Below are positions 3,610 through 28,972 of a stretch of DNA of 30,623 bases, piece by piece; within the stretch, counting starts at the first letter, position 1, and every line of letters begins with the position of its first letter. The translations under genes were made by a program, and so were the position numbers. The notes beneath the pieces are model-generated. The model was not told the DNA's origin. It worked only from the letters and a program-made list of their open reading frames with translations, and searched no databases. Origin of the DNA: a virus; the IMG/VR virus record IMGVR_UViG_3300043465_001355, positions 1 to 30,623 of that record, one strand, 5' to 3'.

Positions 3610-4641
3610 ATGCAAACCTATTCCCTTGTTCCTTCGCGGAACCTCATCATGGCCGAGCGCGAGATGCTCAAGCACGCCATGCCCATCAAAGTGCTGAGCA
3701 CCTTCGGCACGCAGAAGCAGATCCCTCAGAACAAGACTGACACCGTGGTGTTCCGTCGCGCTCTGCCGATCGACGCTGGCGCCAACGGCGCGCCGAGCAT
3801 CACCACCAGCAACTACCTGCTGCAAGAAGGCGTCACGCCCGGCGCCCGCACCATCAGCTACCAAGACGTGCAGGTCACCCTGCAGCAGTACGGTGTGCTG
3901 ATGAAGCTGTCGAGCAAGGCCGAGTCGATGTACGAGGACGACATCCCCGGCGACATGGTCAAGCTGGTCGGCGAGCACATGGCCTCGATCGAAGAGCTGA
4001 TCTCCTACGGCGTGGTCCGCGGCGGCACCAACGTGGTCTACGCGAACGGCACTGCCCGCACCGCCGTGAACACGACCATCACGCTGAACAAGCTGCGCCA
4101 GGCAGCTCGGCAGCTTGAAAGCGCTCACGCCCAACTGGTGACCGAAAAGCTGGCCTCGTCGGTCAACTTCGGCACCGCCGCGGTGGAGCCGGCCTACCTG
4201 GTGTTCATCCACACCGACATGGAAGCCGACGTGCGGAACCTGACTGGCTTCGTGCCGGTCGCCAAGTACGGTTCGCAGAAGCCGGTGCATGAGCGCGAAG
4301 TCGGATCGGTCGAGCGCTTCCGCGTTGTGACCAGCCCCTACTTCAAGCCGTTCCTGGCGGCTGGTGGCACGATCACTGCGGGCGCCTTCCTGTCCAACGG
4401 CGGCACCACCGGCACCACGGCCGACGTGTACCCGCTGATGGTGGTTGCGCAAGAGGCCTGGGGCCAGGTCGCGCTGAAGGGCATGAACGCCATCCAGCCG
4501 ATCTATCTGCCTGCAAAGCAGATCACGCACGCCAACCCCATGGGCCAGTTCGGCTACGTCGGCGCCAACTTCTACAAGAACGCGGTGCGCCTGAACGAAA
4601 ACTGGATGGTCCGCGTCGAGGCGGCCGCCTCCGGCCTGTGA
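3610..4641 (+). CDS. Major capsid protein, N4-gp56 family
   Basis: The 343-residue product matches the N4-gp56-type major capsid family. It has an N-terminal helix rich in Met/Lys (MAEREMLKHAMPIKVLSTFG), the KTDTVVFRRALP strand, and the LTGFVPVAKYG...EVGSVERFRVVTSPYF block. The C-terminal end is the typical MGQFGYVGANFYKNAVRLNENWMVRVE. The family adopts the HK97 fold and forms the icosahedral shell. Length is a little below the usual ~380-400 residues of N4 gp56 itself, but the characteristic blocks are present. It follows the scaffold by 2 bases. Codons are strongly GC-ending, as expected of a highly expressed gene. A GC-rich hairpin lies just after the stop. Confidence 0.88.
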   Translation: MQTYSLVPSRNLIMAEREMLKHAMPIKVLSTFGTQKQIPQNKTDTVVFRRALPIDAGANGAPSITTSNYLLQEGVTPGARTISYQDVQVTLQQYGVLMKLSSKAESMYEDDIPGDMVKLVGEHMASIEELISYGVVRGGTNVVYANGTARTAVNTTITLNKLRQAARQLESAHAQLVTEKLASSVNFGTAAVEPAYLVFIHTDMEADVRNLTGFVPVAKYGSQKPVHEREVGSVERFRVVTSPYFKPFLAAGGTITAGAFLSNGGTTGTTADVYPLMVVAQEAWGQVALKGMNAIQPIYLPAKQITHANPMGQFGYVGANFYKNAVRLNENWMVRVEAAASGL

Positions 4642-18339: not shown

Positions 18340-21300
18340 ATGGCGAAAAAGTACCTGTCTGACGACGAGGTGTTCGGCACCGCAACCTCATACCTTTCGG
18401 ATGAAGAAGTCTTCGGCACGTCTGCCCGCGACGCAGGCGGCGGCCGTGGTTCCATCAACCCGCCGATGATCTATGAGCCGCAGCCGGAGCGGGTTGCAAA
18501 GCGCGGGTTTATCGACCAAGCCAAAGATGCTCTCATTGAAGCGCTGCCCTTCCCGGTCAAGGTTGCGGCCCAGGCCCTGCCTGTCCTGGCCAGAATTCCG
18601 ATCGGCAAGGAGCCTGCTGCGGCCCCGGTTAAGGAGCCGGCTGAACCCAAGCCCTACAAAGACCGCCGCGAGGCTCTGGACGACGCCGTCAATCTGCTTG
18701 AGGAAGGCGTAAACCAGGCGGAATTGACGAATGCGTTCGCCGAGGGCGGCATCAAGTTCGAAGAGATCGTGGCCCACGGCAAGAAACGCGGCAGCGATTA
18801 CTTCAAGCAGCAGCCTGCCCTGCCGGCAACCGATCCGGAACTGGTGCGCCTTGCTGGGCGTTACCCTGCGCCCGTAACGGGAGAGATCAAGTCAACCCGC
18901 CCAGAGACCCCGCTGCCTGGAGCAGACGTCCTGCTGGCCGGGGCCAAAGGCGTGGTCAGCGGATTCCAGATGTTGATGAGCGCCAGCGGAGCCGGCGGCA
19001 AGCCGTCTTCCATTGCTGAGAAAGCGCTCCAGACTGCCGACTCGTACCTTGAGGGACTGCGCAGTGCCGCCGCCGTCAAGGACGACGATCGGATTGGCTT
19101 GATCATGGATGCCGCCAAAGACGGCACATGGACCGAACAGGTTGCCGCCGCGGCAAAGGCTGCAGGCGTGGCTCCGGCATCACTTGTGGCGCAAGGCCTG
19201 GGCACGAGCGTGCCGGTTATCTTGGCGTCCCTTCTGCCAGGCGTTCGCGAGTCCACCCTTGCCCGATTGGGCACCCAGGTCGGGCTTGGCGCAACGATGG
19301 GCGCGGGCGCCACCAAAGAGGCGATCTACACCGCCGTCAAAGACGACATGCTGCGCAACGGCATGTCCAAGATTGAGGCTGAAGAGCGCGCTGAGGCTGC
19401 GCAGTCCTACCTCGGGAAGAACAAGGATCAGATCGCCATCGGCATGGCGCTTGGTGCGCTTGCGTCCTCGACCGGCGTGGAAAAGGTCATCCCAATCGGC
19501 CAGGTCAGCAAGGTGCTGGCCAAGTCTGGCGTGTCTCGTGCCGTGGCTTCTGCCGAGCAGAACGTGATTGGCCGCGGCTTGATCGGTGGTTTTGCTGAGG
19601 CTTTGCCCGAGTTCGCCCAAGGTTCGGCCGAACAAGTGGCGAAAAACGTCGCCCTGCAGCGCGAGGGCCGCGACGTGCCGACGTTTCAGGGCGCGATCGG
19701 ACAGGGCACGCTGGAGGCCTTGGCCGGCTTCGGTGCAGGCGGCCTGACCAGTGCAGCCTTTGGCCGCCCGCAGGCGGAAACTGCCGCCCGCGGCGCGGCC
19801 GATGTCGGCCCGTCTGCGCCCATCAACTTCACCCCCGCAGGCAGCCCCACCGCCCAGGCGGGCCTGGCTCCAATTGTGGTGCCGGTGCCAACAAATTCGC
19901 CTGCGACGCAAGAGCAAGCAGCCGGGCTTCCGCCCATCAATCCGCAGGTTGAGCAACAGTTCGGCCTGGACAAGCTCCGCATGGGAGGTGCCGATGTCAG
20001 CACACTTGGCGCAACTGGAGGACAACCTGGCCTCCGCAGTCCAGCAGGGGGCGATCAGCCTAGCGGAGGCCTGGGCATTCCAGGACGTGGTGCTGATGTC
20101 ACCGGGCAACTCCTGGGTGGAGATGCCGGTCTGCCTGCAATCAACGCTGGAGCGAATGTACCTACTGGAGGTGCAACTGGGCAACCAGCTCCTGGCGTAG
20201 CGCTGCCGCGGGTTGCTGCCCGCGCCACCGACCAAGATCTGCTGGCGCGCACTGAGGCGGCCATCGCGGCCCCGCAAAATAACAATGCTGATACAAGCCT
20301 GCAGCCCTGGGCTGGACGCAGCAAGTCGGGCTACGCCACCGAGCAGGACGCCGAGCAAGCCCGAGCAACGGCAAGCGCCGTGCTTGATACCAAAGAGACC
20401 CACGACTGGCGCGCCGAGCCAATGGACAACGGCCGCTTTCAGCTTGTCCCGTATCTCAAGAACGAGCAACAGGGTTCGCAAGCTGCACCCATCCCTGAAC
20501 CCATCACCGCCCCCAGCGGCAAGCCGTTCAGCACCGAGAAAACCGCCGCCGTCTTTGCTCAGCAAAACGGCATCACCGGCTACAGCACCGTCAAGATGAG
20601 CGGCGGCTGGGCCATCCAACCAACGGAGACGACCCTTGGCACTCAAACCCCTCAAGCCATCCAAGGCCAAACGCAAAGACAAGCACCTGCCATCAGTGGA
20701 GCAGCAGGCCAGGGACTGGCTGGCAACCTACAACCTGGAGATGCAGCGCAGGCAGGCGTTCCTGCAGTCGCAGGAGCAGCAACCCCTGGAGTCTCGGGTA
20801 ACGCACGTCAGTTGGCGCCTGCACAGTCCGAGCTGGGGCAGCCTCTCGCCGCAGGTGCAAGCGAAGGTGAACGAGCTGCAGTCGTAGGCGGCCCGCTTTT
20901 CGCAAGCAAGGCCAAGTCGGCGCCGATCTCGGCCATCAGGCTGGCACAGGACCGCATTTTCCGCCAGAGTGGTGTGGAGTTTGCTCCTGTCTTGCCTGAC
21001 CAACTGACCGAGCAACAGCGTGCGGCATCCCTAATTGCCACCTTGAATGGCCAGACCGCGACGTTCATAGAGCAAACGGGCGGCGACCCGCAAAAAATGC
21101 CCAACGGCCTGGCAGTTGCTGGCAAGCACGTCATGATTGACGTCAATTCTGAAGACGCCGTCTTGTCTGTGGCCATGCACGAAGTGGTCCACACCATGCC
21201 GGACCACATTCGCAAGCCGCTTGAGGTGGCGCTGCGCAAGCTGTTCAAGCCCGGCATGGAAGGCGACTTCAAGAAAAGTTTCAATTACAAAGACGCGGAT

Positions 21301-24300
21301 CTCGACAAAGAGATTCCGGCAATGATCACGCAGGCCGTGACCAAGCGCAAAGACTTCTGGAACGAACTGCGCCAGGAGATGGGAAACAAGGATTTCAGCG
21401 CCGTAGCAGAGCTGATCATCACGCGCTTGGACGACTGGGTCCGTGGCGTCAGCAAGGTGTACGGAGACGGGTTCGTCAACAAGTACGTCACCGACGTCAA
21501 CGAAGCGCGCAGCCTGCTCGCCAAGGCCTACGCCCAGTCGATGCGCGACCAGGGCCTGCAGCCTGATGTGGCCGTGGTGGGTGACGGGCAGGTAATGGCG
21601 TCGCAGCGCTCCCGCGTGGGTATGAACTTCAAGGACGTCGTCAAGCGAACGCCCGAACTGCAGGCCGCGTCTGAGCAGGTGAAGGCAGGCGAGATGACCG
21701 CTGCCGAGTACGACGCCCTGGTCAACCAGGCCAAGCCCGTTGAGGCCTACAAGTCGGTGCCCGCGCCGGCCACCGTCACAGACATCCAGCAGGCGCTCAC
21801 GTCCGACAAGACCGAGCGCATTGGCAAGGCCAGCAGCCTGCCCGCGGGCCACCCTGTGGGTTTGCGCCTGGACATCCCGGCCTATTCAAACCACGGCACA
21901 TGGGTGGTGTCAGTGCATGAGCAGGAGGCCGGCTACAACGCTGGCAAGTCCATCGGCTACGAGCCGGTCGCTGCCGCCACCAACGTCAACTTTGGCGTGG
22001 TGGAGAAGGCCGCCTTGAACATCGCGAGCGGCAAGCCCAAGGCAACGATCGCTGTGATGAAGGGGAGCTGGAAGCCGACGACTGCCAAGCAGGCGTACAC
22101 CGCCGCTCAGGCTGCCATGAAGTCCAAGGACTGGGTGCAGGTCGGCATGGACCCGGAGCGTCACTCGTACTTCTACGACCGCAGCACCATGGAGCCGGTG
22201 GTTTCTGCAGACGAGGTCTTGCAGGTTGGCCCGCTGGTGCTGGCGAAGAACCCGGTGTACGGCGACAAGGCTGACTTCATGTTCAGCAACAGGGCCGCCA
22301 GGGCTGAAGGCAATACCGAAGACAACAGCTTTGAGGAAGGCAATGCTGATGTCATGCCGCCCGAAGAGATCCGTGCCGACGACATCATGTTCTCGCTGCG
22401 TCGTGTCGAGGAGATCAACGACGCGCCAGAGATCACGATGCAGGACCTGGTCGGTGAGACCGTGTTCCCGATCCTGGCAGACCTGACTGCTGCCGGCTAC
22501 GTCTACATGGGTAAGCAGTTGCGTGGCGGGCCGTACTACACGCTGCTGCCTTCCAACTCCAAGGCCGGCCTGATCTGGGCCAACGACAGCAAGGGCGTGG
22601 CCAGCATCAAGAACAAGAAGGCCGCCCGCGGGGTGATCGGCCTGATCGTTGCGATGAAGCAGACTTCCCACGCAACCAACAACACAGTGGCCAACATCGT
22701 GTTCCGCGCTGTTGAGGATGAGATTCAGAAGGGTTCCGTTGCCCAGGATGACATCCCGAAGCTGGACGACATCGTGCGCGGTCTGGCCGCCCGTACCGAG
22801 ACCAAGACTCGCAAGGTCGATGGCAAGGAGGTCAAAGAAACCAAGCAGGTGTACCCCGAGTTCGCGGACTTCCCTGGCTTTGGCAACCGCAAGGCGTCCG
22901 AGAAGTTTCTGCGGTCCATGTCCTTTGAAGCGCGCGGCCTGTTCTTTGACGAGATGACCAAGCCAACTGTGGAAGACCTTGGCCTGGGGGTCATCCGCAA
23001 GGTGATCAACGACACCGTTGAGCCTGACCTGCGCGGCCTGAACATGGGCGATGTGGTCATGGCGATTCGCTTTGACCCGAACGCCGAGACGATCGAGCTT
23101 GGCTCAAAGACCGGGACGCCTGAGCATGACTCGTATCGCTACGCAGTCAAGGGCACAGTGATCGGCAAGTTCAAGCGCCCGATCTCCTTCCAGAACGTCT
23201 TTGTCGACCTCATGGCCGAACGCGCCGGGAAGGATACCAACGTCAAGCGGGACTATCGCTCGCTGATGCTGAGTAAGCCTGAGCAGGTGATCACACAGGA
23301 CATTGTTGACCGGGTCACGCAGACCGCATACAAGCTCATTGGGTCACCGGCAGAGGCCCAGGCAGCAGTTGCTGCGGCCAACATTGACTGGAACAAGATC
23401 GACCGGCCCACGGGAGCTGGCGTCAAAGAGTTCCTCAGAACCAGCCGCATCTATGGAAGGGGGGATGACACCCCATCGTTCGCTGAAGCCAAGGCGCTCA
23501 TCAAGGGCGGCAAGCTGCGCATCTTCCGCCTGGCAGAGACTGAGAACTGGTTTGCGCTAGAAGACCGGGGCGGCGATCGAGTGATGACATCGGTCATGGT
23601 GTCTCAGCCTGGCGTGCGGCAGGAAACACTGTTTGGCAACATGGTCGAGGTGGCCAAAGCAAACGGTGCCACCCACATCGAGCTTGGCAACAAGGTGGCT
23701 CCGCTCAAAAAAGTAAGCGCACCAATCCGGGTAGCTCCAATCATCAAAGAGCTGTCAGCGATGACCGACGCTGACCTCTTGAATCTTGGAATCGACCCAA
23801 CAGACATCCGCCGCCTTGGCCCCAAGCTGGATGCTGAGGATGCCATGCAAGTGTCCCCCACGGCGGTCGTGCAGTTCTCCAACCGTGTCTCGCCCGCCGA
23901 CAAGATCCGCTGGCGCAAGGTCACCGACGTCAAAACAGAAATCGGCAACCTTGACACGTTGCCCAGGCACATCGTGCCGTTTGCCACCTTCATGAAGGAC
24001 ATGGCAACCAAGGCCACCAACGGTGGTCTGACATCTCGCGACGTGATCAAGGCCTACACCATCGCCCGCTCCAGCATGAACCGCTCAGCGGTCAGCACGG
24101 ACAAGGTGAAGGCGGCAGGCCTGGTGCTGCCGAAAGAGTTTAGCGACGCCAAGATCCGGCCCGAGGGCGCGTTCGGATACTGGCTGCTGTCGCCGATCGG
24201 CCAGCAGTACCTGAACGCAGCAGAGGTCGCTGTCGTGGACGCAGGCAGCATCGCAGATGCAGTCAAGGTGATGGCGCCGTTCGGGACTCAGAACACGCTG

Positions 24301-25932
24301 GGCGGCGACCTGGAGCGCGCAGCCGGCGGCGACCTGCATACCCGGCTGCCGGGGATGACGGCGGCCATTGCCAAGGCGGCCAGGGGCAAGAATGCGGTCA
24401 GGGACTGGCAGGACGCCACCGACAACATGTACGGCGTGCGCGAGGCCAAGAAGGGCTTCCTTGGCTCGCTGCTGGGGTTTGGCCAACTGCCGACCTTTGA
24501 CGCTCGGCAGATCAACGTCAATGTGGAGCCCAGCAGCAAGGAGGACACGCTCAAGGCGCTGTCGTCCAAGAAGGCGCGCAGTGTTGTGGCGAAGCTGGCC
24601 AGGCGTATGGACGCATTGAGCCTGGCGATGGACCCTAAGTTCTCGCCGTTCTACCAGCACCTGGTGCATCATGCGGTCTGGGACGCAGTCGGCGGCACGG
24701 AGACCACGCACGCTGATGTAATCGACGCGATGGTGCGGGCGAGCAATCGAGCGCAGCCAGTTGGCCGCGCCCCTGAAGACATCAAACCAAAGGAGAACCA
24801 ACGTGGTCAAAGTTCCGATACCAGAGACGGAGACGGAGGAGGACGCGCAGATAGTGCAGGACCGGCGCCGCTTCCGGGCGCTCCAATCATCAAGGGCGCA
24901 ACAGGGCCGGACCCCCGCATCGTCGCAGTCGCAGAGCAATACGCCCGCGACAACGGCATCGACCTCAAGCGCCAAGCAGAATACGTTCAAGTAGACCCCA
25001 GGCGCGCGCTGCGCATCGCCAACGCCTACGAGGTCATGCGCCACGCGCCCAATGACCCGAAGGTCAAGGAAGCCTACAGCAACCTGATCAAGCAAGCTAC
25101 TGCGCAGTACCGCGCACTTGAAGACGCGGGCTACAAGTTCTGGTTCATCGACCCCGAGAACGACCCGTACAAGAGCCCCTGGGACGCGCTGCGTGAACTG
25201 CGGTCGACCAAGACCATGGGCGTGTTTTCTACTGCCGACGGGTTTGGTAGCGACGAGTCGAGCAGCGGCAGCCAGAGCAACCCAATGGAGGCTGATACGG
25301 GCATGCGCTGGCCCTATGGTTCGCCTGATGGTGAGACCAGGCCCGTTCTGGCCAACGACCTGTTCCGCGCAGTCCACGACGCTTTTGGCCACGGCATGGA
25401 GGGTGCTGGCTTCCGCGAGCACGGAGAAGAAAACGCCTGGCAGGCCCACGCCAGGCTGTTCACCGGCAGTGCCGTGGGCGCCATTACCAGCGAGACACGC
25501 GGCCAGAACTCGTGGCTGAACTTCAAGGCCACACCGCTGCGGAAAATGGTTGGGGACGCCAAGGCTGAGAAGCTGCACCCTGACAACTGGCAAACCATCA
25601 CGACCGGCGAACACAACCGCACGGCCAAGGTTGAAGACACCATCTTCGCGGACCAGAAGACCGGGCTCATGCCAGAGTGGACGTGGACCGAGGGGCGGGC
25701 TGGCGACATGGACGTCATGGCCAGCAACCGCGCGGCAAAACCAGAGCTGGACAAGGACGTCGTCGCCCTGTTCAAGGCCCTGCAAGACTCCCGCGGCCTG
25801 GGCCGCATCCGAGCCCAAGAGCGGGTTGACGCGCACCCCATGGCTGAGACAATCCGTCAAGTGGATGATGATTTTATGGACATCCTTGAGAGGCTGGACG
25901 ACGCCGGCCTTGTGAAGATCAACTGCAAGTGA
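18340..25932 (+). CDS. Giant polyvalent protein (2530 residues) with zincin-like and HDAFGH domains
   Basis: The largest gene, with AGGA 7 bases before its ATG. Visible modules: duplicated YLSD[DE]EVFGT (residues 5-14, 18-27); Ala/Gly-rich hydrophobic stretches (about 195-480); linker (about 552-620); two small repeated modules (about 660-705, 727-762); linker (about 766-850); a zincin-like metallopeptidase with HEVVH at 947-951 and a candidate third ligand E991; an LPD-like domain with RHSYFYDR (1274-1281); a mixed domain (about 1350-1840); a helical domain (about 1850-2150); and a C-terminal domain with HDAFGH (2346-2351), GEENAWQAH (2362-2370) and SETRGQNSW. Motifs like DVMASNRA recur at module borders. 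Phage polyvalent proteins are known multi-effector proteins thought to enter the host with the DNA. Three small genes lie in its linkers in the +1 frame. Exact activities are inferred. Confidence 0.75.
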   Translation: MAKKYLSDDEVFGTATSYLSDEEVFGTSARDAGGGRGSINPPMIYEPQPERVAKRGFIDQAKDALIEALPFPVKVAAQALPVLARIPIGKEPAAAPVKEPAEPKPYKDRREALDDAVNLLEEGVNQAELTNAFAEGGIKFEEIVAHGKKRGSDYFKQQPALPATDPELVRLAGRYPAPVTGEIKSTRPETPLPGADVLLAGAKGVVSGFQMLMSASGAGGKPSSIAEKALQTADSYLEGLRSAAAVKDDDRIGLIMDAAKDGTWTEQVAAAAKAAGVAPASLVAQGLGTSVPVILASLLPGVRESTLARLGTQVGLGATMGAGATKEAIYTAVKDDMLRNGMSKIEAEERAEAAQSYLGKNKDQIAIGMALGALASSTGVEKVIPIGQVSKVLAKSGVSRAVASAEQNVIGRGLIGGFAEALPEFAQGSAEQVAKNVALQREGRDVPTFQGAIGQGTLEALAGFGAGGLTSAAFGRPQAETAARGAADVGPSAPINFTPAGSPTAQAGLAPIVVPVPTNSPATQEQAAGLPPINPQVEQQFGLDKLRMGGADVSTLGATGGQPGLRSPAGGDQPSGGLGIPGRGADVTGQLLGGDAGLPAINAGANVPTGGATGQPAPGVALPRVAARATDQDLLARTEAAIAAPQNNNADTSLQPWAGRSKSGYATEQDAEQARATASAVLDTKETHDWRAEPMDNGRFQLVPYLKNEQQGSQAAPIPEPITAPSGKPFSTEKTAAVFAQQNGITGYSTVKMSGGWAIQPTETTLGTQTPQAIQGQTQRQAPAISGAAGQGLAGNLQPGDAAQAGVPAVAGAATPGVSGNARQLAPAQSELGQPLAAGASEGERAAVVGGPLFASKAKSAPISAIRLAQDRIFRQSGVEFAPVLPDQLTEQQRAASLIATLNGQTATFIEQTGGDPQKMPNGLAVAGKHVMIDVNSEDAVLSVAMHEVVHTMPDHIRKPLEVALRKLFKPGMEGDFKKSFNYKDADLDKEIPAMITQAVTKRKDFWNELRQEMGNKDFSAVAELIITRLDDWVRGVSKVYGDGFVNKYVTDVNEARSLLAKAYAQSMRDQGLQPDVAVVGDGQVMASQRSRVGMNFKDVVKRTPELQAASEQVKAGEMTAAEYDALVNQAKPVEAYKSVPAPATVTDIQQALTSDKTERIGKASSLPAGHPVGLRLDIPAYSNHGTWVVSVHEQEAGYNAGKSIGYEPVAAATNVNFGVVEKAALNIASGKPKATIAVMKGSWKPTTAKQAYTAAQAAMKSKDWVQVGMDPERHSYFYDRSTMEPVVSADEVLQVGPLVLAKNPVYGDKADFMFSNRAARAEGNTEDNSFEEGNADVMPPEEIRADDIMFSLRRVEEINDAPEITMQDLVGETVFPILADLTAAGYVYMGKQLRGGPYYTLLPSNSKAGLIWANDSKGVASIKNKKAARGVIGLIVAMKQTSHATNNTVANIVFRAVEDEIQKGSVAQDDIPKLDDIVRGLAARTETKTRKVDGKEVKETKQVYPEFADFPGFGNRKASEKFLRSMSFEARGLFFDEMTKPTVEDLGLGVIRKVINDTVEPDLRGLNMGDVVMAIRFDPNAETIELGSKTGTPEHDSYRYAVKGTVIGKFKRPISFQNVFVDLMAERAGKDTNVKRDYRSLMLSKPEQVITQDIVDRVTQTAYKLIGSPAEAQAAVAAANIDWNKIDRPTGAGVKEFLRTSRIYGRGDDTPSFAEAKALIKGGKLRIFRLAETENWFALEDRGGDRVMTSVMVSQPGVRQETLFGNMVEVAKANGATHIELGNKVAPLKKVSAPIRVAPIIKELSAMTDADLLNLGIDPTDIRRLGPKLDAEDAMQVSPTAVVQFSNRVSPADKIRWRKVTDVKTEIGNLDTLPRHIVPFATFMKDMATKATNGGLTSRDVIKAYTIARSSMNRSAVSTDKVKAAGLVLPKEFSDAKIRPEGAFGYWLLSPIGQQYLNAAEVAVVDAGSIADAVKVMAPFGTQNTLGGDLERAAGGDLHTRLPGMTAAIAKAARGKNAVRDWQDATDNMYGVREAKKGFLGSLLGFGQLPTFDARQINVNVEPSSKEDTLKALSSKKARSVVAKLARRMDALSLAMDPKFSPFYQHLVHHAVWDAVGGTETTHADVIDAMVRASNRAQPVGRAPEDIKPKENQRGQSSDTRDGDGGGRADSAGPAPLPGAPIIKGATGPDPRIVAVAEQYARDNGIDLKRQAEYVQVDPRRALRIANAYEVMRHAPNDPKVKEAYSNLIKQATAQYRALEDAGYKFWFIDPENDPYKSPWDALRELRSTKTMGVFSTADGFGSDESSSGSQSNPMEADTGMRWPYGSPDGETRPVLANDLFRAVHDAFGHGMEGAGFREHGEENAWQAHARLFTGSAVGAITSETRGQNSWLNFKATPLRKMVGDAKAEKLHPDNWQTITTGEHNRTAKVEDTIFADQKTGLMPEWTWTEGRAGDMDVMASNRAAKPELDKDVVALFKALQDSRGLGRIRAQERVDAHPMAETIRQVDDDFMDILERLDDAGLVKINCK
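18352..18420 (+). repeat. Duplicated N-terminal YLSDxEVFGT motif
   Basis: Residues 5-14 and 18-27 of the polyvalent protein read YLSDDEVFGT and YLSDEEVFGT. The synonymous codons differ between copies, so the peptide rather than the DNA is conserved. A packaging or docking tag is a plausible role. Confidence 0.7.
19994..20200 (+). CDS. Nested small gene A in the +1 frame of the polyvalent gene
   Basis: ATG 19994 follows GGGAGGTG (19983-19990), one of the best Shine-Dalgarno sites in the window. The 68-residue product (MSAHLAQLEDNLASAVQQGA... ending LLEVQLGNQLLA) is a normal-looking helical protein with Trp, Phe and Met. The giant frame here encodes a Gly/Ala/Pro linker. Third-position GC is 57 of 69 codons in the nested frame against 25 of 69 in the giant frame; in the 80 giant-frame codons just upstream (19741-19980) it is 58 of 80. 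The codon signal therefore shifts to the nested frame at its start. Function unknown. The alternative is a coincidence of linker composition. Confidence 0.6.
   Translation: MSAHLAQLEDNLASAVQQGAISLAEAWAFQDVVLMSPGNSWVEMPVCLQSTLERMYLLEVQLGNQLLA
20636..20887 (+). CDS. Nested small gene B in the +1 frame of the polyvalent gene
   Basis: The TTG at 20636 lies 7 bases after GGAG (20625-20628). The 83-residue product starts with a basic patch (LKPLKPSKAKRKDKH), then a helical, Gln/Arg-rich core (SVEQQARDWLATYNLEMQRR) and ends SPQVQAKVNELQS. The overlapped giant frame is a Gln/Gly/Ala/Pro-rich linker. Third-position GC is 70 of 84 codons in the nested frame and 34 of 84 in the giant frame. A basic N-terminus could bind nucleic acid, but no family was recognised. 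It ends just before the PLFASKAK motif that opens the zincin module. Confidence 0.55.
   Translation: MALKPLKPSKAKRKDKHLPSVEQQARDWLATYNLEMQRRQAFLQSQEQQPLESRVTHVSWRLHSPSWGSLSPQVQAKVNELQS
20893..20916 (+). other. Boundary motif PLFASKAK (residues 852-859)
   Basis: This is the most divergent member of a motif series found at module borders of the polyvalent protein. It lies between linker/nested gene B and the zincin module. It is included because of position and the [FM]-A-S core. Confidence 0.35.
21589..21612 (+). other. Boundary motif QVMASQRS (residues 1084-1091)
   Basis: This is a short V-M-A-S-x-R motif at the end of the zincin module and the start of the next domain (VGMNFKDVVKRTPE). It matches DVMASNRA at 25711 in the core positions. 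Confidence 0.5.
22273..22296 (+). other. Boundary motif DFMFSNRA (residues 1312-1319)
   Basis: It follows the LPD-like domain with RHSYFYDR and precedes an acidic linker. It shares D-x-M-[FA]-S-N-R-A with the sites at 25711 and 26546. Confidence 0.55.
22381..22404 (+). other. Boundary motif DIMFSLRR (residues 1348-1355)
   Basis: It lies 29 residues after the previous site, at the other side of an acidic linker, and directly before the next predicted domain. It keeps D-x-M-F-S-x-R. Confidence 0.5.
23866..23889 (+). other. Boundary motif VVQFSNRV (residues 1843-1850)
   Basis: It separates the mixed domain from the helical domain that begins near residue 1853 (DKIRWRKVTDVKTE). It keeps F-S-N-R, with Q replacing M. 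Confidence 0.45.
24803..24994 (+). CDS. Nested small gene C in the +1 frame of the polyvalent gene
   Basis: GTG 24803 lies 7 bases after AAAGGAG (24789-24795). The 63-residue product begins VKVPIPETETEEDAQIVQD, then RRRFRALQSSRAQQGRTP and a Ser/Thr/Gln-rich tail. In its first 28 codons third-position GC is 22 of 28 against 10 of 28 for the giant frame, which is a Gly/Asp/Arg linker there. In the rest, the giant frame regains its normal bias (25 of 36) as the HDAFGH domain begins, so the tail of this gene overlaps constrained sequence. Function unknown. Confidence 0.5.
   Translation: MVKVPIPETETEEDAQIVQDRRRFRALQSSRAQQGRTPASSQSQSNTPATTASTSSAKQNTFK
25711..25734 (+). other. Boundary motif DVMASNRA (residues 2458-2465)
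   Basis: It follows the HDAFGH domain and precedes the ~65-residue C-terminal helical segment. It is identical over eight residues to the motif near the N-terminus of the LPD38-like protein encoded at 26426. Confidence 0.55.
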
Positions 25933-25941
25933 GGTATCACA

Positions 25942-26433
25942 ATGCCTGTTTCCAACCTTCTCGACAAAGCCACCGAGGACATGCTCAACCGGGCTGTTCA
26001 CGCTGAGCTTTACGCCTCGCACCTGTACAAGCATGTGGCCAACCAGATGCAGCGCGTCGGGTTCTTCGGCACGCAGAAGTTCTTCGCAGGAGAGAGCGCC
26101 GACGAGCTGACGCACTACCAGCGCATCGCCGACTACATGAACGACCGAGGGACGATGGCCAAGGTGCCGGCGCTGGAGGCCTGCACCGAGAAGGTTTCCG
26201 ACGTGGCCGAGGCGATCGACCTGGGCTACGAGACCGAGCTGCAGCTCATGCGCGACTACGAGAAGTGGTATCGCGACTGCAAGTGCGTCATCACCCAACA
26301 GTTCCTGCTGCAGTTCTTGGAACTGCAACGCAAGAGCGTGGGCGAGTACGGCGACCTGCTGGCGCGCATCGCAATCGTCTCCGACAACATGGCCGGCATG
26401 CTGCTGATCGACCAGGAGCTTGGCAATGGCTGA
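25942..26433 (+). CDS. Ferritin-like diiron protein
   Basis: The 163-residue product aligns by eye along its length with bacterial ferritin FtnA. It has LNRAVHAELYASHLYKHVAN (helix A, E22), FFAGESADELTHYQRIADYMNDRG (helix B, E55 and H58 as ExxH), ETELQLMRDYEKWY (helix C, E99), FLLQFLELQRKSVGEYGDLLARI (helix D, Q129), and LLIDQELG matching the YFIDKELS ending. E22, E55, H58, E99 and Q129 correspond to FtnA E17, E50, H53, E94 and Q127. The acidic third-site residues (FtnA E126, E129, E130) are not conserved. Length matches FtnA (about 165). TGAGG lies 7 bases before the ATG, formed by the polyvalent stop. Iron oxidation/storage or oxygen-radical control is the family role; use by the phage is inferred. 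Confidence 0.75.
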   Translation: MPVSNLLDKATEDMLNRAVHAELYASHLYKHVANQMQRVGFFGTQKFFAGESADELTHYQRIADYMNDRGTMAKVPALEACTEKVSDVAEAIDLGYETELQLMRDYEKWYRDCKCVITQQFLLQFLELQRKSVGEYGDLLARIAIVSDNMAGMLLIDQELGNG

Positions 26434-28972
26434 CTGCAACTACACATTCAAGACCGCAGAGGGCGAGGTCACCATCAGGGGGATGGCCGAGATGAAGGCC
26501 TTCTTGGCATTGAATGGTGTGGATGCGATTGAAGGCGCTGGCCCCGATGTGATGGCCAGCAATCGCGCGCAACTCACGGGCTGGCGCGACGAGGCTGGCC
26601 GCGTGCGCTTCAAGCCTGGCGCTGTGGCCTACCGCTACGCTGCTGACATCGCCAACTCTCTGCTGGAAAAGACCCCCCTGATCGGCTCGCTTAAGCCCAT
26701 TGACAAGGATCTGTCGCTGGCCATGCGGCGGATGAAGAATGAGATTGAGAAGGCGCAGAACCTAACCGCTGGCGTAGCCACCAAGCTGGGCGAGCTGCCC
26801 GAGGATGAGCGCCTGCTGATCAGCGACGTGATTGAGGGTGAACTCAAGCGCGGCGTCAAGCCCGCCAAGCGTGTGTTGGACATCGCCGCTTCCATGCAGT
26901 CGATCATGTCCGAGCAAAGCGCTGAACTGGTGCGCCTGGGCATGCTGAGTTCTGATGCCGCTGGCCGATGGGATGGTAAGTATCTGCCACGCTTCTATGA
27001 GAAGTCGCTGCTGGATGAAGCCGGCCAGTGGGCTAAGGCGGCAAAGCAGTTGCTTGGCCGGAAGAAGACGATGCAGGGCATCAAAGGCTCAAGCCTGAAG
27101 GGTCGTGGCATCTTTGAGACCATCCCAGTGGATGAACTGGAGGCTTGGGTCGCCAACGGCTGGGAAGAGCGCGATGCCAAGTTTGACCCGGCAGTTGACA
27201 CTGAGGTCACCGTCTGGCGCGACTACAGCCGGGCTGAGCGTGAAGACATGGGCGAGATCCGCGACGCCATGTTCCGATTCGTCATGGGCTACATGAGAAG
27301 CCAGCGCGACGTGGCGCTGGGTCGCCTGTACGAGAACCTGGCAGGCTCCATTGCCAGCAAGTCTGAGAAAGAGGGCTATGTCCAGGTCCCCAAGACCAAC
27401 ATTGAGGACACCACCGCACCCCGGTACGGCAAGCTGGCCGGCAAGTGGGTCCCGCAAGAGGTGCTGGATCACTTAAGCGCGTTTGACGGCAGCATGGAAA
27501 GCGACCTGCTGAAGGTGTACCGCAAGGGCCTGTCCATGTGGAAGGAAGGCAAGACGGTGCTCAACCCGGTCGCGCACGCCAACAACGTGCTGTCCAACCT
27601 GACCATGGCCCACTTCGCTGGTGTCTCGTATTGGGACGTCAACAAGTACCTGGGCACCGTCCGCGACATCGTCAAGGGCGGCCCGATGTTGGCCGAGGCC
27701 CGCGAGGATGGCTTGTTCGGTGGCACCGTGTCGCAGGTTGAGCTGGTCAGCATGCTGCCGGACCAGCTCAAGGTGCTGGCTGCCAAAACTGAATCCAAGG
27801 TCGGCAAGAGTGTGGACACCGTGTGGAACGCGATGTCGTTCTTCCTGCGCAAGCCGCTCGGCGTGGCCTACGAGGCCGAGGATCTGTACTTCCGTTTCTT
27901 GATCTACCGCGACGCACGCGCTCGGGGAATGAAGTCAGAAGACGCGGTGACTTATGCGCAGCAGTACATCTTCACCTACGACGACCTGCCCAAGGGCGCA
28001 CGCACAATCCGCGACTCACCAGTCGGCATCCCGTTCTTCTCGTGGACGTACAAGGCGATCCCCATGATCGCCCGCACGGCGCTTGAGTACCCCTGGCGCA
28101 TGGCAGCCCCTGCGGCTGCGATGTACGCGGCCAACGCGGCCATGTACGCAATCGCTGCTGGCATGGGCGGCGAAGACGACGAACCATGGTGGGAGGTGAT
28201 GAAGCGTTACGTGACGGACCCTGAGTTCCGCGAGCAGGCCAAGCAGTTTGAGCGCAACGAGCGCAAGAACCTCCCAGAGTGGCAAAAGGGCTTCACCTCA
28301 ATCGGCACGCCGAAGGCAATTCGCTTGGGCACCGATGATCTGACTAACCTGCCCCTGTTCTTGGACGTGAGCCGGATCTTTCCAGGCGGCGATCTTGGCG
28401 ACTTCCACAACAACCTGGGGGGTGTGCCACTCCCGGCGTGGTTGACGCCAAACAACCCGGTTCTGACTAGCCTGACGGGCTTCTTGCAGAACAGGGACTC
28501 GTTCACTGGCAAAGACATTGTCAACGCCAAGCTGGACACTGGCGCCGAGAAGTCGGCAAAGTGGGGCGAGTATGCGTGGCGTCAGTTCGCGCCGGCCATT
28601 GCTCCGTTCAACTACCACTTTGACCGCACGATGAATGCCTTGGCCAACGCCACCGACACGACGATCAACGTGGGTCTTAAGGAGTACAGCGGCGTGGACA
28701 GGATGGGCCAGCCGGTGCAGCCAAAGTACGCAGCGATGCAGACCTTCGGCATCAAGGTGCGGCCGACGGATCTGGATGTGTCAGAGCAAATCGAAAAGTC
28801 GAGCCGCAAGCAATTGATACTTGAACTCGACAAGCAGATCCGGCAAATCAACCGCCTGGAGAACAAGGGCTACTACAGCGACGAGAGGGCCGAGAAGCTA
28901 AAAGAGCCTATCCGCGAGAAGCGGCAGTTCCTGAAAGAAGGCCTGACAATCGAGGGCGAAGAGCGAAAATAA
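26426..28972 (+). CDS. LPD38-like large polyvalent/ejection protein
   Basis: ATG 26426 is preferred because AGGAG (26414-26418) lies 7 bases upstream; it overlaps the ferritin-like gene by 8 bases. The 848-residue product opens with a small module ending in DVMASNRA (residues 41-48), the motif of the polyvalent protein. The N-terminal half is helical (IDKDLSLAMRRMKNEIEKAQNL and on). The middle carries TVLNPVAHANNVLSNLTMAHFAG (N380 to N391 core), the hallmark of the LPD38 domain, followed by RFLIYRDARARGM and SPVGIPFFSWTYKAIPMIARTALEYPWR. An Ala-rich possible membrane segment follows (AAPAAAMYAANAAMYAIAAGMGG). The C-terminus is a charged helix. LPD38 proteins are part of phage polyvalent/ejected proteins. 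Exact activity unknown. It closes the operon. Confidence 0.7.
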   Translation: MADCNYTFKTAEGEVTIRGMAEMKAFLALNGVDAIEGAGPDVMASNRAQLTGWRDEAGRVRFKPGAVAYRYAADIANSLLEKTPLIGSLKPIDKDLSLAMRRMKNEIEKAQNLTAGVATKLGELPEDERLLISDVIEGELKRGVKPAKRVLDIAASMQSIMSEQSAELVRLGMLSSDAAGRWDGKYLPRFYEKSLLDEAGQWAKAAKQLLGRKKTMQGIKGSSLKGRGIFETIPVDELEAWVANGWEERDAKFDPAVDTEVTVWRDYSRAEREDMGEIRDAMFRFVMGYMRSQRDVALGRLYENLAGSIASKSEKEGYVQVPKTNIEDTTAPRYGKLAGKWVPQEVLDHLSAFDGSMESDLLKVYRKGLSMWKEGKTVLNPVAHANNVLSNLTMAHFAGVSYWDVNKYLGTVRDIVKGGPMLAEAREDGLFGGTVSQVELVSMLPDQLKVLAAKTESKVGKSVDTVWNAMSFFLRKPLGVAYEAEDLYFRFLIYRDARARGMKSEDAVTYAQQYIFTYDDLPKGARTIRDSPVGIPFFSWTYKAIPMIARTALEYPWRMAAPAAAMYAANAAMYAIAAGMGGEDDEPWWEVMKRYVTDPEFREQAKQFERNERKNLPEWQKGFTSIGTPKAIRLGTDDLTNLPLFLDVSRIFPGGDLGDFHNNLGGVPLPAWLTPNNPVLTSLTGFLQNRDSFTGKDIVNAKLDTGAEKSAKWGEYAWRQFAPAIAPFNYHFDRTMNALANATDTTINVGLKEYSGVDRMGQPVQPKYAAMQTFGIKVRPTDLDVSEQIEKSSRKQLILELDKQIRQINRLENKGYYSDERAEKLKEPIREKRQFLKEGLTIEGEERK
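26546..26569 (+). other. Boundary motif DVMASNRA in the LPD38-like protein (residues 41-48)
   Basis: All eight residues match residues 2458-2465 of the polyvalent protein, encoded about 830 bases upstream, although the codons differ (GTG/GTC, AAT/AAC). The peptide is therefore conserved rather than recently copied. Confidence 0.55.

Follow-up and report, generated by a model that had tools for sequence, protein, structure and literature searches.

Organization of the locus

The window, that is, the whole analysed stretch of 30,623 nucleotides of viral DNA, contains a ferritin gene located between the genes of two giant proteins on the same strand (Table 1). These are the two polyvalent-type neighbours named in the first-pass annotation, and both were confirmed. 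The stop codon of the first giant overlaps a Shine-Dalgarno-like box, and the ferritin start codon follows 9 nt past this stop in all loci of the window group except L017, where the distance is 11 nt. Throughout this group, the downstream giant gene overlaps the 3' end of the ferritin gene.

Table 1. Positions of the genes, shared ends and repeats around the ferritin gene in the window
Feature	Positions	Strand	Basis or remark
First giant, 2,530 aa, polyvalent/ejection-type	18340..25932	+	ORF; PHROG 3170, PHROG 586
Left copy of 24-bp near-direct repeat encoding DVMASNRA	25711..25734	+	
C-tail of first giant, last about 60 aa (...FMDILERLDDAGLVKINCK)	25750..25929	+	Retained although the remainder of the giant is exchanged
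TGA of first giant overlapping SD-like GAGG, then ferritin ATG	25930..25944	+	Sequence, spacings across loci
Viral ferritin, 163 aa	25942..26433	+	Pfam, AF2, Foldseek, ligand conservation; helix E 150-162
Second giant, 848 aa, ATG overlapping ferritin stop by 8 nt	26426..28972	+	ORF; downstream core conserved in relatives
N-tag of second giant (MADCNYTFKTAEGEVTIRGMAEMKAFL...)	26426..26545	+	C, Y, K invariant
Right copy of 24-bp near-direct repeat encoding DVMASNRA	26546..26569	+	Just past the N-tag

Where complete, the upstream giants of the window group have about 2,000-3,000 residues. The first giant of the window matches PHROG 586 and, at residues 2338-2396, PHROG 3170 (function unknown), the latter being the sole match of its HDAFGH region. 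This region is an inconstant neighbour of ferritin, as the giants vary by locus and only their ferritin-facing ends are conserved. The core of the second giant was modelled by AF2 with pLDDT 49.6, and its description as an ejection protein rests on position.

Some other features of these genomes were observed. Residues about 1085-2465 of the first giant contain a recurring short linker of the type [FA]S[NQ]R (MFSNRA, MASNRA) between segments, and similar strings (MSNRA, ASNR, KSNR) occur in the fused giant of the relative L140; they could be module borders or cleavage sites. The motif HEVVH at residues about 946-952 is a possible zinc-metallopeptidase site (HExxH), as described for polyvalent proteins. 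The gene at 3610-4641 encodes a PHROG 1357 major head protein, distant relatives of which occur in phages of Stenotrophomonas, Pseudomonas, and Pseudoalteromonas, and Pseudoalteromonas phage Y3 has a similar gene run ending in a giant, without ferritin.

Identification of the ferritin

The ORF between the giants encodes a true ferritin. It matches the Pfam family PF00210 (Ferritin) with 68.3 bits (cut-off 24.5, E 8.9e-19), and scores 87.8 bits against a profile built solely from ferritins outside the viral family, the best shuffled copy among those scored reaching 11.9 bits. A sequence search of PDB retrieved the ferritins of A. fulgidus, E. coli, and V. cholerae. The AF2 monomer model (pLDDT 92.7) consists of five helices, 9-39, 42-68, 88-112, 116-146, and 150-162, and is superimposed by Foldseek on solved ferritins with TM 0.92 and rmsd 1.1-1.3 A. 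This is the ferritin arrangement of a four-helix bundle with a short helix E and a long BC loop. Thus the phage-encoded ferritin-like protein of the first-pass annotation is borne out both by the profile search against ferritin families that it proposed, with PF00210 well above cut-off, and by the fold. Neither a firm placement in a non-metal four-helix family nor homologues devoid of the ligands turned up.

Residues E22, E55, H58, E99, and Q129 align with E17, E50, H53, E94, and Q127 of the E. coli FtnA reference. As had been claimed from the sequence, these five ferroxidase ligands are conserved; they are invariant in 70 out of 70 distinct viral sequences, all of which have the di-iron ligand pattern E, ExxH, E, Q of non-heme ferritins. 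The companion claim, that the acidic residues of the third site are lost, holds for three of the four positions (E126 to L128, E129 to K131, E130 to S132). However, it fails for FtnA E49, since the corresponding viral position 54, D in the window ferritin, is acidic in 66 of the 70 sequences (34 D, 32 E, 3 A, 1 S). The third iron site of FtnA (site C) is therefore absent as such. This site is not universal in ferritins, and hence its loss excludes only the FtnA type; the FtnA equivalog model NF007638 scores 42.6 bits against a cut-off of 178.

The ferroxidase site of eukaryotic H-chain ferritins is formed by E27/E62/H65/E107/Q141 with A/S144. The viral proteins share these ligands and have S or A at the position of FtnA E130, so that their site is of the H-chain type. 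Residue 29 is Tyr in the window ferritin and Trp in 30 of the 70 viral sequences; Tyr29 corresponds to Tyr34 of human H ferritin. However, eukaryotic H chains are not the closest to the viral ferritin in sequence, and the viral gene has no eukaryotic context. Residues Q37, N67, D68, G70, G134, and D138 are invariant in the viral family.

Other members of the superfamily were ruled out. In bacterioferritin, the B-site consists of Glu127/His130 (E. coli numbering), in place of which the viral proteins have Q129 and S/A132. Dps proteins lack helix E, have a helix in the BC loop, and form the ferroxidase site between subunits, whereas here helix E is present, the BC helix is absent, and the ligands align as single-subunit ferritin sites. 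Rubrerythrins have a second ExxH in helix D, replaced here by Q129-R-K-S132. PF02915 scores 25.7 bits on the viral ferritin, against 68.3 for Ferritin.

The viral family

Relatives of the viral ferritin, about 41-100% identical, were found in many IMG/VR phages. The sample was collected by four ferritin scans of IMG/VR, the last of which kept 80 of the 88 matched loci, together with loci reached via the second giant. The gene evolves under purifying selection, with the median dN/dS of 0.22 over 28 pairs. In the maximum-likelihood tree, 38 viral representatives are separated from a small sample of ten outside ferritins by a branch with 100/100 support and a length of about 3 changes per site.

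No close relative was found in 50,697 phage records of INPHARED by tblastn with the window protein (P0001) and three divergent members of the family. The matches obtained were merely 25-31% identical and came from unannotated metagenomic fragments or Staphylococcus-labelled contigs; two of them were placed in the tree and group with other ferritins. Two pattern scans of GTDB (A2, A3) yielded no family member, although the short patterns used would miss distant cellular kin. PADLOC gave no match. On sequence grounds the viral ferritins form a family of their own, encountered in this analysis solely in uncultivated phages.

The tail, ferritin, and tag cassette

In giant-protein phages, ferritin is the middle part of a three-part cassette, being preceded by the conserved tail of the first giant and followed by the conserved tag of the second one. 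In the window group, the last approximately 60 residues of the first giant and the first approximately 40 residues of the second are retained even though the giants themselves differ strongly, and shorter conserved ends are common to this group and other giant-protein phages. The tail has invariant F, L, and near-terminal Cys across divergent rows, and the tag has invariant C, Y, and K across 14 divergent rows. In the window, the cassette is bracketed by the two copies of the DVMASNRA repeat. We considered whether the tail Cys arises merely from an overlapping ferritin start codon, AT-ATG-T being read as ATA TGT. This explains the residue in the low-GC group and fails for the window group, which has the 9-nt gap, and for L043.

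Profiles of the two ends matched next to ferritin in 79 places (tail) and 85 places (tag), contigs fetched twice being counted twice. The remaining matches are the same loci in the opposite orientation or, in L084, a contig ending at that point. Independent scans with the tag alone and the tail alone added one new contig, and ferritin is present there too. No split giant carrying the tags without ferritin was found in scans and profile searches. In profile searches of portal-group and ferritin-less records, the tags were absent, with the exception of one 11.7-bit tail match in a 25-aa frame.

Other layouts and ferritin-less relatives

In the groups examined, which do not extend to L029 and L078, ferritin lies in the virion-gene block, in agreement with the operon placement proposed earlier. 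Three layouts were observed. The first is the giant-ferritin-giant order of the window. In the second, ferritin stands between the portal gene and a gene of about 380 codons, before an MCP-like gene. This portal group, clustered by blastp, includes L032-L042, L044-L045, L048-L056, L071-L072, and others; the portal gene of L034 belongs to PHROG 6547 (1.2e-66). Ferritin is present in 37 of the 41 portal loci, and three others end within the portal gene. The fourth, L193, has no ferritin: at 2040-2300 it is cleanly absent between a 98% identical portal gene and the approximately 380-aa gene, which, as read from the sequence, is followed by an MCP-like protein. In the third layout, ferritin comes after a minor-head-type gene (L030, L057) and, in L030, before a neck gene. 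As the portal-group phages have no tags, ferritin does not need them.

Three relatives of the window (G001-G003) contain no ferritin at the PF00210 threshold of E<=1. Their second-giant core is 86-88% identical to that of the window, and the first giant is 35-75% identical over long stretches; both giant halves are in one ORF, without the cassette or tags. The fused giant is complete in L140 (7891-18969, 3,692 aa), where four ART-PolyVal stretches were observed. In the core-protein tree, the two tested ferritin-less rows fall within the carriers of the gene, in a cluster with the window that has 100/100 support; one other row, L114, ends before the ferritin position. Since the ferritin-less rows are nested among carriers, the simplest history suggested by the sequences is loss of ferritin together with fusion of the giants; recombination is a possible source of this arrangement. 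The absence of the gene from G001-G003 and L193 implies that ferritin is dispensable.

Discussion

The reading that we prefer, with a probability of about one half, is that of an active ferroxidase ferritin produced late, coupled to the giants, and probably forming a cage associated with the head or the ejection machinery. The protein would be a classical (maxi-)ferritin subunit with an H-type di-iron ferroxidase site. Judging by its position and gene spacing, its synthesis would be late and linked, through translational coupling, to that of the giant ejection/polyvalent proteins. The subunits, modelled as a monomer, would assemble into a cage oxidising and storing Fe2+ and so reducing Fenton damage around DNA; the cage would be produced together with the head/ejection machinery and is probably attached to or near it. 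This reading best explains the ferritin fold and family, the ligands invariant in all sequences, and the low dN/dS, as well as the virion-block placement in differing layouts, the occurrence of the tail and tag solely beside ferritin, and the tagless single-ORF giants of the ferritin-less relatives. Against it stand the tagless ferritin of the portal group and the dispensability of the gene in G001-G003 and L193; moreover, a portal channel would be too narrow for a folded 24-mer of about 12 nm, so that ejection of the intact cage is unlikely. That an active ferritin is made alongside the virion block is, we infer, well supported; the genomic position suggests that it is perhaps virion-associated. 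A connection with tail iron, as proposed in the first-pass annotation, gained no support from the sequences studied here. Packaging of ferritin, iron storage for the virion, and a service to the HDAFGH-containing neighbour, also suggested there, are conceivable roles.

The gene could instead be an auxiliary antioxidant or iron gene, whose soluble product works solely in the infected cell, its place in the virion block reflecting only late timing. This is a real possibility, albeit one we do not favour. Ferritin has been listed among the ROS-defence genes of freshwater phages (PMC6802176), and genes for Dps and Mn-catalase are present in gut phages of the Gratiaviridae (PMC8008677); moreover, the portal group has ferritin without tags, and the gene is dispensable. 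However, placement in the virion block across layouts and co-occurrence with the tail and tag exceed what timing alone predicts.

A reading compatible with a soluble ferritin makes the protein a passenger inserted in a giant gene, with the C-tail and N-tag docking the split halves to each other and unrelated to ferritin. Indeed, the tags are confined to split giants, both being lost where the halves form one ORF, and from their sequences a C-terminal helix and an N-terminal beta-hairpin/helix resemble a docking pair. Co-occurrence of the tags with ferritin is equally expected if they merely re-dock a split giant, which counts against the preferred reading. We nevertheless regard a passenger role as rather unlikely, as the strong ligand conservation and purifying selection mean that ferritin itself is selected, and a tagged split giant without ferritin was not encountered in the scans and profile searches.

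A bolder version of the preferred reading, in which the cage is an integral component of the head/ejection apparatus, anchors the C-tail and N-tag, and acts as a ferroxidase on entry or next to the packaged DNA, is doubtful. Finally, reuse of the fold as a purely structural virion part that has given up iron handling, which would fit the loss of three third-site acids and the residues invariant in the virus family, is very improbable, as five invariant ligands are unexpected in such a role.

The usual view of phage iron enzymes is that they are auxiliary metabolic genes. Here ferritin keeps its place in the virion-gene block of phages that are only distantly related, and the giants next to it have matched ends. 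Together with the natural ferritin-less relatives, this makes it directly testable whether an iron-oxidising cage is built by some phages into the particle or beside it.

Comparison with known systems

The bacterial and archaeal ferritins (E. coli FtnA 1eum, V. cholerae 3qz3, A. fulgidus 1s3q) share with the viral protein the Pfam family, the five-helix fold with helix E, and the A/B-site ligands. However, identity in structural alignment is about 22%, and the third site is mostly lost in the viral protein. The 'putative bacterial non-heme ferritin' of an uncultured marine phage (BFVD A0A8D9C9X5) is similar in structure (TM 0.90), but only 25% identical in structural alignment. Two uncultured-phage proteins named prohead protease (BFVD A0A6J7WIS1, A0A6J7WPK9) give a weak match to the ferritin model in a ferritin-like region, which may be a domain fused to a head protease.

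The likeness to encapsulins with ferritin-like cargo (PMC7355545) is one of the general idea, an HK97-type shell around an iron enzyme with a short targeting peptide. The encapsulated ferritins differ from the viral protein and are shorter. Polyvalent proteins are late products of giant size and mosaic build that are likely to be packaged in the capsid (PMC5512222). The giants studied here are similar to them, and ART-PolyVal domains are present in a ferritin-less relative; however, that paper does not mention ferritin, which here interrupts a polyvalent-type protein. Literature searches covering polyvalent proteins, tail iron, and encapsulins brought up no report of the ferritin/giant arrangement.

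The phage Dps, Mn-catalase, and ferritin genes cited above are, like the gene studied here, phage-borne members of the ferritin superfamily, but the viral ferritin family, its virion-block position, and the tail/tag cassette are not described in the available portions of PMC8008677 and PMC6802176. Thus ferritin and Dps in phages have been reported already, and what is new is the distinct clade, its position in the virion-gene block, and the tail/ferritin/tag cassette.
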